A stretch of DNA of 64,000 bases from Glacieibacterium arshaanense (GTDB lineage: Bacteria > Pseudomonadota > Alphaproteobacteria > Sphingomonadales > Sphingomonadaceae), in NCBI RefSeq assembly GCF_004681125.1, contig NZ_SIHO01000001.1, positions 817,149-881,148 of the forward strand, read 5' to 3'. Below, one piece after another: positions 8,276-60,122 of this stretch (positions are counted from its first letter, which is position 1; every line of letters starts with the position of its first letter). Under the pieces are notes generated by a model, which made no database searches, was not told where the DNA came from, and worked only from the letters and a program-made list of their open reading frames with translations. The translations under genes and the position numbers were made by a program.

Positions 8276-8303
8276 TTGCGCGCAGGCCCCGCTTTGCTAT
8301 ACA
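8276..8303 (+). promoter_or_regulatory. Native promoter of tRNA-Leu(UAG), stranded at the left prophage end
   Basis: -35 TTGCGC (8276-8281), 16-bp spacer, -10 TATACA (8298-8303), and the tRNA 5' end at 8319. This is the spacing expected of a stable-RNA promoter. After prophage insertion it transcribes only the 5' half of the tRNA and then runs into phage DNA. Confidence 0.6.
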
Positions 8304-8312
8304 GCGCCTCCT

Positions 8313-8361
8313 TTCCCTGCGGGCGTGGCGGAACTGGTAGACGCGGCAGGTTTAGGTCCTG
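8313..8361 (+). repeat. attL: 49-bp direct repeat containing the 5' half of tRNA-Leu(UAG)
   Basis: Identical to 50962-51010. It covers six bases before the tRNA (8313-8318), then the acceptor strand, D-arm, anticodon (TTTAGGT loop) and into the anticodon stem, where homology ends at 8361. The tRNA here (from 8319) is broken: its 3' half is replaced by phage sequence. Reading on in the integrase frame from attL gives EGTDENP and a TAA at 8382-8384, which is the C-terminus int would have in the circular phage. Confidence 0.95.
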
Positions 8362-8471
8362 AGGGAACCGATGAGAATCCATAAGGCTACCGGCTGGGGG
8401 CGCTCGGTGTCTGGGGTAATACCTTCAAGATCACCATCCACGCTTCCCTGAGGCACCTTTAAGCGAACGAT

Positions 8472-8486: not shown

Positions 8487-8518
8487 GATACGCCGTCCAG
8501 TCTAAATGTTGAACGATA

Positions 8519-8550
8519 GGAAGCCCTGGGCCGCAACGCCTGGGGTTTCC
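8519..8550 (+). terminator. Weak stem-loop terminator downstream of attL
   Basis: Stem GGAAGCCC (8519-8526) with GGGGTTTCC (8542-8550), allowing one G-U pair, followed by a poor T-run (CTTATGG). In the integrated state it could stop readthrough from the stranded tRNA promoter; in the circular state it would lie downstream of int. Confidence 0.4.
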
Positions 8551-8636
8551 CTTATGGTGCTTATTGGCTTGAGGACACTCAACCTCGAGGTGCCTGAAGG
8601 TTAACTCAAGTTTACCATCAATTTCGAATTTGAATG

Positions 8637-8688
8637 TTGCCAAACGGACCCTTTGGCCATATTATTATGACATTGGGGAACGTCCCCA
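8637..8688 (+). promoter_or_regulatory. Predicted sigma70-type promoter with an operator-like dyad for the phage RNA polymerase gene
   Basis: -35 TTGCCA (8637-8642), 17-bp spacer, -10 TATTAT (8660-8665): one of the best host-type promoters in the window. A perfect dyad TGGGGA-ACG-TCCCCA (8674-8688) lies at or just after the expected start site, where a bound repressor would block elongation. The phage-type promoter motif begins 3 bp further on. Confidence 0.6.
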
Positions 8689-8690
8689 TG

Positions 8691-8713
8691 TTTCTAAACT
8701 GCCCATATGGGGA
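8691..8713 (+). promoter_or_regulatory. Predicted phage RNA polymerase promoter 1
   Basis: Core CTAAACTGCCCATATG at 8694-8709, then GGGAGG. The same 16-bp core is at 11541-11556 and, reversed, at 45395-45410, and I found no other copy. The end of the motif (CATATGGGGAGG) resembles the T7 promoter end CTATAGGGAGA in layout. It lies in the leader of the polymerase gene, so the enzyme would activate its own transcription. Confidence 0.6.
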
Positions 8714-8755
8714 GGAACCTTAAAGTTTCCCTCTAGAACCAAAAGGAACTTGCAG

Positions 8756-11410
8756 ATGCTTCATGATACCCAAAACACACTAGAAGGAAACTTCAAGGAC
8801 CTTAAGGCCTTGCCGGTTTCTGCAGACGTTGAGGCATCCATCCAGGCGCAGCTGGCGCTTGAGGAATACAACCTGGTCGCAGGGGCCGAACGGTACCTGG
8901 ATCGTCAAGATCGCAAGGGCCGTTCGGAAGGCGTTGATGCCCGTGATGATGCCCAGAAGGTCATTAAGGCCGCCATTCCGTTGGTGTCCTCCCAGATCAC
9001 CAAATGGTGCGAAGAGGCTGGCAAATCGGCCGGTCGTACGCACCGCGCCCTGAAGTTCCTGAACGCTCTCGACCCGGACCTCCTGGCACTGATCGGTCTC
9101 CGCTCGGTTTTCCTGGGGGTTGGTCGTGGTGGTCATATGGTCGACGTTACGATCACCACCGGCACTGACGTCCAGATGGAGCTCGAGGCGTTGGCCTTGA
9201 AGGAGCATGACCCCAAGGCCGCAAAGCTTTTCGCCTCACTGGCAGCCAAAGGCACCGAGAGCGCAAACACCAAGCGCCACAATGCACTGACCGAAAAGGC
9301 CGGTGTGGCTCTCAACTGGGGCGGAGAGGAAAAGCTTCGTGCCGGCGAGCCTATCGTCAATGCGGTTCTGATTGCCTGTGAGGCACTGTTCGAACGTTCG
9401 GTCGGATACACGCCGTCGACGCATGCCTCAGCGAAGATCGAAAAGGAATCGACCATCGTTCTCACAGACGCTGGCGCCGCGGCCCTTGTCGAACTGGCAG
9501 AAGCTGAGGCCTGGATGCACCCGCTGTTGACCCCGATGATCGCCATCCCGCGCCCCTGGGAGTCTAACAACACTGGCGCCTATTACGATGAACGCCTCGC
9601 AAAGCGTGTCAAACTGGTGCGTGGTCGCTCCTCACAGCAGAAGAAACTCATCGCCCAGGCAGTCAAGGATGGCACATTCAATGACCTCTTGGCCGCGGTG
9701 AACGCCGCACAAGAAACCGCCTGGTCTATCGATACCCGTGTCCTCGAGATCGTCGAATGGACCAAGGAAGCCGGTTTGCGCCCTTCGTCATCCTTCCCGC
9801 TCACAAACCTGCCCGTGATGCCCGCTAAGGTGTCTGCAGACGTTTGGGACGCCGCGGACAAGACGGCCCGTTCGGTCTGGAGTTCATCACGCCGCGCGGT
9901 CCGTCTGGAAATCAAGGATGCCGCAAGCGCCTCGAGCGTGTTCAACAGCGACATTCAGATCGCCAAAATGCTCGCAGAGGCAGGCACGTTCTATCAGCCG
10001 CACAGTCTCGATTGGCGTGGTCGTATCTACCCAGTGGCGCATTTCAATCACCAGCGTGGGGACCACATCAAGGGTATGTTCCGTTTCGCAGACGGTGTGG
10101 CCCTGGGGGAAACCGGCGGTGACTGGCTGGCAATTCATATCGCGAACTGCGGGGATTTCGGGAAGGTTTCGAAAGCGACCTTGGATAAGCGGATTGCCTG
10201 GACGTACGAGAACGGCGAAATGCTCCTGGAGATCGCTGCAGACCCCCGCGGTACTTATGACAAATGGTCCGCCGCGGATGCGCCTTTTTGTTTCCTGCAG
10301 GCTTGCTTTGAGTATGCCGCTTGGGCTGAAACGGGCTTCTCTGAGGACTTCCAATCGTCAATCCCGATCGCACTCGACGGTTCCTGCTCGGGCCTGCAGC
10401 ACTATTCGGCAATCACACGGAGCCCGGAAGAAGCCCGCCACGTCAACCTGGTGCCACGTGATGACGTTGGGGACATCCACACGTTCGTCGTTGGGATCGC
10501 CCAGGACCTGTTTGAAAAGTCGATTGCTGATGGCGACCAAATGGCCAAAATCTGCATCGATGCGGGATTCGGGCGTCCAACCGTGAAACGTAACGTCATG
10601 ACCTACTTCTATGGCTCGAACCAGTTCGGTATGTCTGGTCAGCATATGGAAGACCTGATGCGCCCTCTGACCAAGCGCCTCGTCCTTGGGGAAATCGATA
10701 AACACCCATACAGTGTCATCAACGAGAAGACCGGCCTGGACGATGGGGGCTTTGCGGCCGCTGCATGTCTCGCCAAACACATCTACAAAGCTGTCACCAC
10801 TGCAGCACCGCGGGCTGAGTATGCTGCCAGATGGTTCCAGTCAGTTGCTGCCATCCTGGCCCATGAAGCACTTCCGGTTGTCTGGACGTCACCGATGGGC
10901 CTTCCCGTTGTCCAGCTGTACCAGCAGTACGAATCGAAGCGTGTGGCCATGTGGCTCTATGACCGCGCGGTGCCAGTCGTGACCCATGCGGACGATAAGG
11001 CTGACCAGGACGGTAACGTTCTGACCAAGGTGCGCACGGTCCTCCAGACCACAGCGACCAAGTTGATTGATAAGTCCAAGGCGCGTTCGGCCATTGCGCC
11101 CAACGTTATCCATTCGCTCGACGCGGCCCATATGCTCCGTACGGTCTTGATGGCCATGGCGAAGGGCATCAAGTCCTTCTGTCTCATCCATGACTCCTTC
11201 GCGACACATGCAGGTAATACCGGCAAGTTCGCCTGGACCATCAAGGAAGCCTTCGTGGCGCAATACGAGACATACTGTCCCATGAAGGCCATTGACGCCT
11301 ACGCCCGCTCGGTACTTTCGGAAGAGGGCATTGCGAAACTTCCGGCCATCGAGCCTTTGGGCACCTTGGATTTAAATGAAGTCATGGGAGCCATGTACGC
11401 ATTTGCCTAA
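8756..11410 (+). CDS. T7-type single-subunit DNA-dependent RNA polymerase
   Basis: 884 aa from ATG 8756 (AAGGA nine bases upstream), matching T7 gp1 (883 aa). A longer frame from 8630 would run through two promoters, so it is rejected. Palm motif A DGSCSGLQHYSA with Asp541, motif B KRNVMTYFYGS with Lys611 and Tyr619, and motif C IHDSFATHA with Asp813 all fit the T7 residues Asp537, Lys631, Tyr639 and Asp812. It should transcribe the middle and late genes from the three copies of CTAAACTGCCCATATG. It is followed by a strong terminator and then promoter 2. Confidence 0.97.
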   Translation: MLHDTQNTLEGNFKDLKALPVSADVEASIQAQLALEEYNLVAGAERYLDRQDRKGRSEGVDARDDAQKVIKAAIPLVSSQITKWCEEAGKSAGRTHRALKFLNALDPDLLALIGLRSVFLGVGRGGHMVDVTITTGTDVQMELEALALKEHDPKAAKLFASLAAKGTESANTKRHNALTEKAGVALNWGGEEKLRAGEPIVNAVLIACEALFERSVGYTPSTHASAKIEKESTIVLTDAGAAALVELAEAEAWMHPLLTPMIAIPRPWESNNTGAYYDERLAKRVKLVRGRSSQQKKLIAQAVKDGTFNDLLAAVNAAQETAWSIDTRVLEIVEWTKEAGLRPSSSFPLTNLPVMPAKVSADVWDAADKTARSVWSSSRRAVRLEIKDAASASSVFNSDIQIAKMLAEAGTFYQPHSLDWRGRIYPVAHFNHQRGDHIKGMFRFADGVALGETGGDWLAIHIANCGDFGKVSKATLDKRIAWTYENGEMLLEIAADPRGTYDKWSAADAPFCFLQACFEYAAWAETGFSEDFQSSIPIALDGSCSGLQHYSAITRSPEEARHVNLVPRDDVGDIHTFVVGIAQDLFEKSIADGDQMAKICIDAGFGRPTVKRNVMTYFYGSNQFGMSGQHMEDLMRPLTKRLVLGEIDKHPYSVINEKTGLDDGGFAAAACLAKHIYKAVTTAAPRAEYAARWFQSVAAILAHEALPVVWTSPMGLPVVQLYQQYESKRVAMWLYDRAVPVVTHADDKADQDGNVLTKVRTVLQTTATKLIDKSKARSAIAPNVIHSLDAAHMLRTVLMAMAKGIKSFCLIHDSFATHAGNTGKFAWTIKEAFVAQYETYCPMKAIDAYARSVLSEEGIAKLPAIEPLGTLDLNEVMGAMYAFA

Positions 11411-49440: not shown

Positions 49441-49788
49441 ATGACTGACGATTACAAATCAGCGCTGGTGAAAGCCGATAGAATCCTGAGTTTCTTGCGT
49501 ACCGCGATTAGCCCGTTGCTGCCTCTCCAGGTGGCTCATACGTTCGTGATGGTTGCCCGAAACGAAGGAAAAAACCTCACGGAGATCACCGAGTTGATGT
49601 CCTCGAAAGTGTCGACGGTCAGCCGTCACCTTTTGGACCTGGGAGACTACACCCGCAAGATGGAACCCGGTTACGGACTTGTGGAATCCAAGACGGCCCC
49701 TACGAACTTGAGGACCAAACAGTTCTACCTGACGTCGCGCGGGAAACTGGTGGCCCGTGAGCTCGCAACAATCCTGCAAGAATCGTGA
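49441..49788 (+). CDS. MarR-like winged-helix regulator next to int
   Basis: 115 aa, start after GAGAGGAGTTTAGCC. Helices then a winged HTH: LQVAHTFVMVARNEGKNLTE, ITELMSSKVSTVSRHLLDLG and a wing ending LRTKQFYLTSRGKLVARELA. It lies 9 bp before int and is probably co-transcribed with it. It is the best candidate for a lysogeny regulator or recombination directionality factor, as no CI-type repressor was seen. Confidence 0.75.
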   Translation: MTDDYKSALVKADRILSFLRTAISPLLPLQVAHTFVMVARNEGKNLTEITELMSSKVSTVSRHLLDLGDYTRKMEPGYGLVESKTAPTNLRTKQFYLTSRGKLVARELATILQES

Positions 49789-49797
49789 GGTGCCATC

Positions 49798-51093
49798 ATG
49801 GCCATTTACGCCGACAAGAATTCGAAGGGTCAGTTGACAGGCCGGTGGCGCGTTGAGCTCCAGTCGGGTGGCAAGCGCTATCGGGAACGTCACGATACCG
49901 TCCAGGCCGCCAAGGCCGATGAGGCTCGTGTGTCCGCCGCTTGGGCCGCAGGGCTCGAGGTCGGGAAGGTCGTTAAGCGTATCGATACCCGCCAGGGCAC
50001 CAAGGCCGTCGAGACGCTCCAGGAAGCCCTCAAGGCGGCCCGTGGGCATCTCTGGAGGGGTATTGCGTCCGAGCAGGGTTGCTGGGCTCATGTGGAGCGT
50101 ATCGTTCGCCTTCTGGGACCTAACCGGAAACTCAACGACCTGGTGACCACTGATATCGATGACCTGATCGTTTCCCTGGAGATCGGCGGGGACGTGGCGC
50201 CTGGGCGAGTTTCCAAACAGAAACCTTTCGTCTTCAAGCCGGCGAGCCAGTCGACCATCAACCGCTACCTGTCGTCATTCCACACGTTTATCGACTGGTG
50301 CACCTCGCGGGGCATGCGGCCCACTGGTGCCAAGCTGGAGTTCGCCTGGCGCGATGAGGATGCCGGCCGTATCCGCTGGATCACTCCGGACGAAGAGGCC
50401 TTGCTTTACGAGTTGCTGCCGCCGGCGATCGGTAAGTTCGTTCATGTTGCTATTGAGACTGGATGCCGCCGTGGTGAACTGAGGACCGCGCAGGCCCACC
50501 AGGTGCAGCTGAACCGCTTGAACTTGTGGGATACCAAAACGGACAAACCCCGGCCGGTGCCCATCACGCCTGCCGTCTCGCAAATCCTGCACGAACTTAT
50601 CGCCACCGGCATGCCGACTTTCAGTGAACTTCGGTACCACTGGGATATCGCCAGGGAAGCCATGGGCCTGAAGGATGACCCTAATTTTGTCCTCCACGCC
50701 TGCCGGCATACCTGCGCCACAAGGCTCGTTGAGGCTGGCGTCAACATCAGGGTCATTCAGGCCTGGCTGGGACACGCTCGGATCGAAACGACCATGAGAT
50801 ACACGCAGGTTCACGACACGATGCTGAATGGCGCCCTCGAGGCCCGTTTACAGCACTCAGGTGCAATCTGTGCGCGTAAAAGTGGGGGCGCAATGGCGTG
50901 GGGTAGCAAGAGGGCCAAACGGCTCGACAACAGGCGTTCAGGCAACTATGTGACCTCACGATTCCCTGCGGGCGTGGCGGAACTGGTAGACGCGGCAGGT
51001 TTAGGTCCTGTTGTTGAAAGACGTGGGGGTTCGAGTCCCTTCGCCCGCACCAAGTTATTGAATACGAACTGTTTTTTGACATTTGAACATTGA
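49798..51093 (+). CDS. int: Prophage tyrosine integrase with C-terminus running through tRNA-Leu
   Basis: 431 aa in the integrated state. Catalytic residues are visible: Arg225 region (ETGCRRGEL), HxxR at 300-303 (LHACRH) and Tyr335 (TTMRYTQV). The frame crosses attR: from residue 404 the last 27 residues are tRNA-Leu 3' half and host DNA (VVERRGGSSPFARTK...). In the circular phage the same frame would end after residue 404 with EGTDENP, 411 aa. The catalytic core is unaffected. Ribosome site GAGGTG before ATG 49798. Confidence 0.93.
   Translation: MAIYADKNSKGQLTGRWRVELQSGGKRYRERHDTVQAAKADEARVSAAWAAGLEVGKVVKRIDTRQGTKAVETLQEALKAARGHLWRGIASEQGCWAHVERIVRLLGPNRKLNDLVTTDIDDLIVSLEIGGDVAPGRVSKQKPFVFKPASQSTINRYLSSFHTFIDWCTSRGMRPTGAKLEFAWRDEDAGRIRWITPDEEALLYELLPPAIGKFVHVAIETGCRRGELRTAQAHQVQLNRLNLWDTKTDKPRPVPITPAVSQILHELIATGMPTFSELRYHWDIAREAMGLKDDPNFVLHACRHTCATRLVEAGVNIRVIQAWLGHARIETTMRYTQVHDTMLNGALEARLQHSGAICARKSGGAMAWGSKRAKRLDNRRSGNYVTSRFPAGVAELVDAAGLGPVVERRGGSSPFARTKLLNTNCFLTFEH
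50962..51010 (+). repeat. attR: 49-bp direct repeat inside int and tRNA-Leu
   Basis: Identical to 8313-8361. It supplies the 5' half of the rebuilt tRNA and also encodes integrase residues near 389-404. The strand exchange must fall within these 49 bp. Confidence 0.95.
50968..51052 (+). tRNA. tRNA-Leu (anticodon UAG), rebuilt at attR
   Basis: 85 nt including an encoded CCA. Acceptor GCGGGCG pairs with CGCCCGC; D-arm with AACTGGTAGACG; anticodon loop TTTAGGT; a variable arm typical of class II tRNA (GTTGTTGAAAGAC); T-arm GGGGGTTCGAGTCCC. The 5' half now comes from the phage attP. There is no tRNA-type promoter directly upstream, which is int coding sequence, so expression probably depends on transcription through int. 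Confidence 0.95.
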
Positions 51094-59006: not shown

Positions 59007-60122
59007 CTATCTGACCACCCTGTAAGTCCTTGTAACAGTTGAAACTTCTGCTGAATCGTGGGGATTTGGTTCGGGAATAGTTCGGGATTCCGTCGTTACC
59101 ATCGCTGCAAGTACGTCGTCGCCTGTAACGTGTGCATACCGCGCGGTTGTGTTGATGGTCGAGTGACCCGCGAGCTTCTGGGCGATCTTCAGGTTGCCGG
59201 TGGCGCGTGTAATACGAGTGAGCGCGGTGTGCCGCATGTCGTGAAATCGAAAATCCTCGATCTCGGCGTTAGACAATGCCTTTTTCCATTTACGTTCCCA
59301 ACCCTGAGGGGTCATGGGATAACGCTCGCCCTTGATCCTGCGTACCCTATCTAGGCGGGGTGGTGCCGACCTCTCGCACATATAGGTGAACACCTGAGGA
59401 CAAACTTTCGGCCGTCCCTTGATGATCGCTATCAGACGAGGTGGTAAAGGAAATGAATGCCAATCGTCTGATTGTGCTTTCAGTTTGATCTTGGCCGTAC
59501 AGTTGTTGAAATCTACGTTTCGCCATAGCAGCGTAACGACAGCAGTCCGACGTTGGCCCGAAATCATGGCAAACTCTGCGACCGCCGCGATGTCTTCTGG
59601 TAGCTCCGCAAAGAGCCGCAGTTCCTCGTCGGCCAGGAGTTCGCGCACCCGCTCCTTGGGTTCTGGAAGCATCAATTTGCCCCATTCGATGTCATCGCCG
59701 ACATCGAATTTTCGCCGAGCGGTGTAACGCCAAATTTTCCGTGCATGTTCGATTTCGCGGTTAACACTCGCGTTAGACACGGCCTTTCTCCGGAGGGCGA
59801 CATAGTCGTCGAGTTCGGCAAAGCCGACGTCTGAAACTCTGTTTGATTTACCCAGTCCATCGACCAGGTTCGCTAACTGGTATCGTGTGGTTTTGGCGCT
59901 ACGCTGATACTGCCCTTTGTTCGCCCACCACGTGCCAATCGCGTCATCGATTGTAACCTGGGGTTTTGCCGTATTGCCAAAAATTATATTTCGCCGCGCC
60001 TCGGCTTCGACGCGTTCCGCATCTCGCTTATTCGTGCAGCGCGTCGAATCTGCGTACCGCTGGCCATCGATTTGAAAATCGTAGTGCCAGTATCGAGATC
60101 GCTGATGCTTGTAGACGGTCAT
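59007..60122 (-). CDS. int: Tyrosine integrase of the tRNA-Pro island
   Basis: 371 aa. N-terminal SAM-like/arm region (MTVYKHQRSRYWHYDFQIDG), then catalytic residues: Arg in ISGQRRTAVVTL, HxxR in FHDMRH, later histidine in LAGHSTINTT and the tyrosine in ARYAHV. The stop is 4 bp from the broken tRNA-Pro, the usual place for an integrase. Its start overlaps the stop of the upstream gene. Confidence 0.95.
   Translation of the reverse strand: MTVYKHQRSRYWHYDFQIDGQRYADSTRCTNKRDAERVEAEARRNIIFGNTAKPQVTIDDAIGTWWANKGQYQRSAKTTRYQLANLVDGLGKSNRVSDVGFAELDDYVALRRKAVSNASVNREIEHARKIWRYTARRKFDVGDDIEWGKLMLPEPKERVRELLADEELRLFAELPEDIAAVAEFAMISGQRRTAVVTLLWRNVDFNNCTAKIKLKAQSDDWHSFPLPPRLIAIIKGRPKVCPQVFTYMCERSAPPRLDRVRRIKGERYPMTPQGWERKWKKALSNAEIEDFRFHDMRHTALTRITRATGNLKIAQKLAGHSTINTTARYAHVTGDDVLAAMVTTESRTIPEPNPHDSAEVSTVTRTYRVVR

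Follow-up and report, generated by a model that had tools for sequence, protein, structure and literature searches.

An integrase gene that runs through its own attachment site into tRNA-Leu(UAG) in a T7-like prophage

The window analyzed here, a 64-kb stretch of a Sphingomonadaceae genome, contains a prophage whose integrase gene (int) stays open across the attachment site and into the host tRNA gene. This raises the question of whether the exchange of the integrase C-terminus upon integration serves the phage, as proposed in an earlier note on this DNA, according to which the swap could bias integration versus excision, or whether it is mainly a by-product of the overlap between gene and attachment site.

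RESULTS AND DISCUSSION

The prophage and its attachment sites

Across the whole window, an exact 49-bp repeat pair was identified (8313-8361 = 50962-51010), whose copies bracket a 42.6-kb T7-like prophage occupying the only tRNA-Leu(UAG) gene of the genome. Genome-wide, this tRNA gene has a single complete copy; the remaining matches are the attL half, short fragments, and two genes of 77-80% identity. In a genome of the same genus (L009), the tRNA-Leu/tig locus is uninterrupted and agrees with the joined attB (8361|51011); the host genes past attR start with tig, clpP, and clpX (named by eye from their translations). There is no doubt about the repeat or the element, and an attachment site within the end of int is an arrangement already known in kind.

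8313-8361, + strand: attL core, the original host 5' part of tRNA-Leu; exact repeat, empty site in L009
50962-51010, + strand: attR core, phage-borne, 6 bp of tRNA 5' flank plus tRNA-Leu positions 1-43; exact repeat
50968-51052, + strand: tRNA-Leu (anticodon UAG), reconstituted at attR (ARAGORN)
8630-11410, + strand: T7-like single-subunit RNA polymerase (phrog_414, E 2e-179); mechanical ORF from TTG, start provisional
49441-49788, + strand: small transcriptional regulator (phrog_9665, transcription regulation, E 3.8e-18), directly upstream of int

The element encodes an RNA polymerase, a primase/helicase, a DNA polymerase, a portal, and a terminase, and its single-subunit RNA polymerase, 270 bp from attL, is a feature of the temperate T7-like phages (Autographiviridae). 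As for the collinear T7 structural order, portal and terminase are present, and the structural block is on the opposite strand. In the circular form, the order would read regulator (49441-49788), int, attP (51010|8362), and RNA polymerase (8630). The regulator is assigned to the MarR type by position only, as in the named T7-like phages discussed below. To the right of the prophage lies a second, weakly similar tyrosine recombinase ORF (59007-60122, - strand) that borders a low-GC stretch (0.51-0.52 from 60 kb on), and this region is possibly another mobile element.

8276-8303, + strand: promoter-like TTGCGC-16-TATACA of the host tRNA-Leu (read by eye, no tool match)
8518-8553, + strand: GC-rich hairpin between attL and the RNA polymerase gene (MFE -30.8, z -2.0)

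The promoter-like stretch of the host tRNA-Leu stays at attL and points into the phage, towards the RNA polymerase gene, and TATAGA boxes of a similar kind are found upstream of attL in relatives. The hairpin is a possible insulating terminator that likely shields the phage from the tRNA promoter; in relatives with this same layout, terminator-like GGTNNCCC...GGTGGGGGACC-T-run hairpins occur ~115 bp past the core. A consensus search for a replacement tRNA promoter in the int tail or upstream at attR gave no match.

The two ends of the integrase

49798-51093, + strand: tyrosine integrase gene int, lysogen form, 431 aa (Pfam Phage_integrase, E 3e-19)
51011-51093, + strand: lysogen-only int end, 27 residues from the tRNA 3' half and host DNA
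8362-8384, + strand: phage-side int end across attP; its 23 bases encode the C-terminal EGTDENP and a stop

The int frame crosses attR and tRNA-Leu and ends in host DNA after 431 aa, its last 27 residues, tRNA- and host-encoded, being VVERRGGSSPFARTKLLNTNCFLTFEH; the figures given in the earlier note are all confirmed. Its claim that attR joins the phage side of attL in frame was recomputed from the sequence, with the circle junction (attP) deduced from the prophage ends: with 8362 placed directly after 51010, the product has 411 aa and its end reads …GLGP-EGTDENP*. Residues 1-404 are common to both forms, and from residue 405 integration exchanges 7 C-terminal amino acids for 27 others; that the lysogen and free-phage integrases differ at the C-terminus follows directly. 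As in the overlap known from phage Mx8, the attP core lies within the int frame, and integration supplies a new 3' end while the catalytic domain stays intact.

An alignment of 28 rows shows no variation at the catalytic residues R224, K247, H300, R303, H326, and Y335. The AlphaFold2 model is confident for the core, whereas residues 379-431 have a pLDDT <50 and are predicted to be disordered. Since the active site is complete by Tyr335, some 70 residues before the swapped segment, the difference between the two forms is confined to the last part of a flexible tail, and both are presumably catalytically competent.

When random tails were redrawn from the base-step composition of the tail DNA itself (Markov model, tRNA core fixed), ~21% kept the frame open through the core; the open frame taken alone is not beyond chance. 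GC content by codon position is 0.63/0.46/0.74 in the int body versus 0.50/0.63/0.58 in the tail, which thus shows no codon-position pattern like that of the body or of coding DNA, a comparison based on 38 codons. The tail also contains one member of a motif pair:

50883-50905, + strand: putative arm-type Int site, TGGGGGCGC-N7-TGGGGTA, within the int coding tail
8395-8418, + strand: matching putative arm-type Int site, TGGGGGCGC-N8-TGGGGTA, on the other side of the core

The pattern TGGGGGCGC-N7/8-TGGGGTA has exactly two matches in the 64 kb, with 0 expected and none in 100 shuffles. In most relatives, GTGGGG/CCCCAC clusters flank the core (background 0.4-0.7 per kb), and some of the right-hand clusters, ~115 bp past the core, sit in terminator-like hairpins. 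The pair may represent the arm sites bound by Int. With a putative arm site in the tail and its partner at the other phage end, the int tail would largely be attP read as protein.

Relatives of the integrase

Among named genomes, relatives came mostly from Sphingomonadaceae, and a plasmid search at E 1e-40 gave none. Both ends could be mapped for 12 elements. The identity blocks comprise the tRNA 5' half up to the anticodon stem-loop in the window, G017a, G398, G399, G400, G406, and G412, and run from the stem-loop to the tRNA 3' end in G017b, G340, G402, G407, and G408. As the former end and the latter begin at the anticodon stem-loop, the crossover is placed there; the integrase thus belongs to the class recombining in tRNA anticodon loops, with a crossover position that is read from sequence identity and is accordingly putative. 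In G017 (L013-L018), two related prophages lie in tandem at one tRNA-Leu, the first with the 5' half and the next with the 3' half.

The earlier note had suggested examining int ends in related prophages in tRNA-Leu, and this comparison cuts both ways. Read-through recurs, being present in six of the 12 first-mapped elements (G000, G340, G402, G406, G407, and G408) versus ~2.2 expected, in a set whose members are related. In the free-phage forms L053 and L058, int also runs through the core and is followed by the RNA polymerase gene. On the tree, where the labels of L059 and L172 were assigned from attR reads only, the distribution of read-through needs seven changes, at least four of them forced by well-supported branches. 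On the other side, int lacks read-through in L043, L057, G986, and G987, among the 12 rows of its clade read-through is limited to the window, and in L043, the nearest relative (51-53%), int stops before the tRNA-like core.

Two further candidate signals were considered and not retained. As the origin of read-through in the window, a frameshift from an L043-like ancestor would fit a DNA alignment with a 2-nt gap and a lost stop region, in sequences too diverged for proof. The uniform length of the phage forms (406-426 aa) was rejected as a sign of selection, since random DNA also gives stops 5-25 codons past the core. In the wider clade, the integrases that stop before the tRNA (L006, L027-L030, L041, L048-L051, L055, and L057) nearly all end in Ala-Ala, encoded by different codons, which could be a degradation end of the ClpXP type.

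A peptide beyond the core in the sister clade

In the sister clade, which includes Novosphingobium islands, all six read-through integrases encode A/S/G-N-D-N/D in frame past the att core. The phage-form ends are EKSTTYANDNDQNP in G340, ..KASNDD in G402, ..KTANDD in G407, ..STANDDGGVEKP in G408, QQLQTLTANDNDP in G404, and ..SGTSGNDN in G405, with the left ends of the last two traced on other contigs. The phase in which the frame leaves the core (0, 1, or 2) and the distance to the motif vary (21-41 bp past the core in the first four measured), while all six motifs are in frame and their codons differ mostly at third positions. Random left ends yield the motif at a frequency of ≤0.001, a figure that is only descriptive because of homology among the members; a cleaner one is the probability of six in-frame cases out of six if the frame were irrelevant, (1/3)^5 to (1/3)^6. 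In the lysogens of this clade, host-coded residues of varied sequence and length replace the peptide.

The motif has no trace in two relatives without read-through, G427 and G986, and is absent in the read-through window, G406, L053, and L058. A pattern scan of the virus collection for further att ends of this clade gave no match. ANDN/ANDD as a family-wide DNA site was rejected, as it is confined to one clade and always lies in the int frame. The A-N-D-N sequence presumably resembles the start of SsrA tags. Like the NDQNP and NDNDP of the sister clade, the EGTDENP of the window is acidic, contains Asn, and has a final Pro, a likeness too short for testing. For the sister clade, selection on the phage-side int end is likely, and a switch analogous to that of Mx8 would be a fair hypothesis.

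Several integrases of this group (G340, L021-L026; G402, L135-L137; G407/G408, L141-L146) are located on islands of just 6-12 kb, which look like satellites and not full phages. In L173 (11000-11130), an RNA polymerase gene follows int, yet no tRNA-like core is found there, and ATNDD-stop is in a different frame from int; perhaps the element has another target site, or a frameshift has occurred.

By-product or switch

For the window, the account that we consider probable is as follows: a temperate T7-like prophage, arranged as regulator - int - attP - RNA polymerase, encodes a tyrosine Int that would recombine within the anticodon stem-loop of tRNA-Leu(UAG). The host tRNA is rebuilt, since its 5' half and flank come with the phage. 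Its attP would be compact, with one arm and the core beneath the int 3' end, and since no int stop lies upstream of the core, 411 aa would be made from the free phage and 431 aa from the lysogen. The tail swap would have a modest effect at most, on Int stability or partner binding, and would mainly be a by-product of the int/attP overlap. The position of the swap in a disordered tail beyond the active site, the solitary read-through of the window within its clade, the stop in L043, the non-coding-like tail, the chance of ~0.21, and the paired motif all point this way. The excess of read-through in the first-mapped elements and the in-frame peptide of the sister clade count against it, since a pure by-product would not predict such a peptide. 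An assembly artifact or a wrong att call is highly improbable: the prophage is present in one genome only (L011, a virus-collection record with an identical int, is probably the same isolate), but the site is empty in L009, the same arrangement occurs in many independent genomes, and the frame is long and intact. As a reason for the overlap, it is conceivable, and compatible with the by-product account, that the phage must supply a promoter and the 5' half of a single-copy tRNA; selection on the DNA (promoter, arm sites) would then leave the protein end free to drift. This would fit the one full tRNA-Leu(UAG) copy, the host promoter left behind at attL, the arm-like motifs in the int tail, and a near-identical stretch in G405 that takes in the tRNA 5' flank within the int tail, but the search upstream of the tRNA at the window's attR gave no consensus promoter, and the sister-clade peptide is left unexplained.

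Given the recurrence of read-through and the sister-clade peptide, a functional switch as in Mx8 is a serious, if somewhat unlikely, alternative here: EGTDENP would tune integration or Int lifetime, and its replacement upon integration would leave the lysogen with an altered Int and tilt the balance of integration and excision. The Mx8 precedent, in which the new int 3' end reportedly alters specificity (PMC6070905), speaks for it, as do the forced changes on the tree and a peptide kept in frame from all three phases, with mostly third-position changes, and missing from the two sister-clade relatives without read-through. However, that motif is lacking in the window and in three other read-through forms, and the window tail is disordered, is not coding-like, and has no counterpart in the nearest relative. 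We regard as doubtful the more specific idea that the C-terminus senses integration, the far-side attP peptide (A/S/G-N-D-N/D in the sister clade, the altered form EGTDENP here) being carried only by Int encoded on unintegrated DNA and lost upon integration. It is unlikely, too, that Int is scarcely made in the lysogen and the 431-aa form has no biological role; a regulator gene does precede int, and LUZ100 has int in a single operon with a MarR-like gene (PMC10134795), but excision requires Int at induction, a stage at which int still carries the lysogen 3' end. These estimates overlap and are not mutually exclusive, since the DNA-level reason for the overlap and low int expression in the lysogen both fit the by-product account.

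If the swap is functional, the integrase would report the integration state from the end of its own gene, giving directionality without a separate factor. The sister clade offers natural variants, some having the peptide and some lacking it, in which the tRNA core is read in three phases; these make such a switch testable. If the swap is not functional, the locus illustrates cleanly how attachment-site DNA can supply the end of a gene.

Comparison with known systems

The int coding sequence of Mx8 contains attP, and upon integration int acquires a new 3' end with the integrase still active; this end swap is reported to alter integrase specificity, and a similar principle is stated for Mx9 (PMC6070905, a review). 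Both share with the window an attP inside int. For Mx8, the specificity change was measured, whereas the window is known from sequence alone, and the description of Mx8 in the review makes no mention of a tRNA gene or a T7-like case, unlike the window.

The T7-like phages LUZ100, RHEph01, HTVC119P, P-SSP7, and S-TIP37 have the same gene order as the window (regulator-int-attP-RNA polymerase) and likewise target tRNA-Leu, with distant integrases (~25-31% identity) and a MarR-family gene where the window has its small regulator. In the cyanophages P-SSP7 and S-TIP37, 39-bp attP motifs matching the first half of tRNA-Leu lie just 3' of int (PMC8776855). In RHEph01, HTVC119P, and LUZ100, int stops ~45-115 bp before a core-like stretch, whereas the window int crosses the core; the tRNA-Leu carried by these phages, immediately 5' of int, is whole, in contrast to the 5' half carried by the window prophage. 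Their core-like stretch is short and of the anticodon-loop type, and the anticodon of the carried tRNA fits it (L215, L217, and L219 for RHEph01, HTVC119P, and LUZ100, respectively); these three phages seem to replace, not rebuild, the host tRNA.

In the archaeal suicidal integrases (SSV, pTN3, and pT26-2), the att site also lies within the integrase gene and integration alters the gene (PMC8371274). They differ from the window because their gene is split and inactivated, whereas the window int keeps its catalytic domain in a single frame and changes at the tail only.
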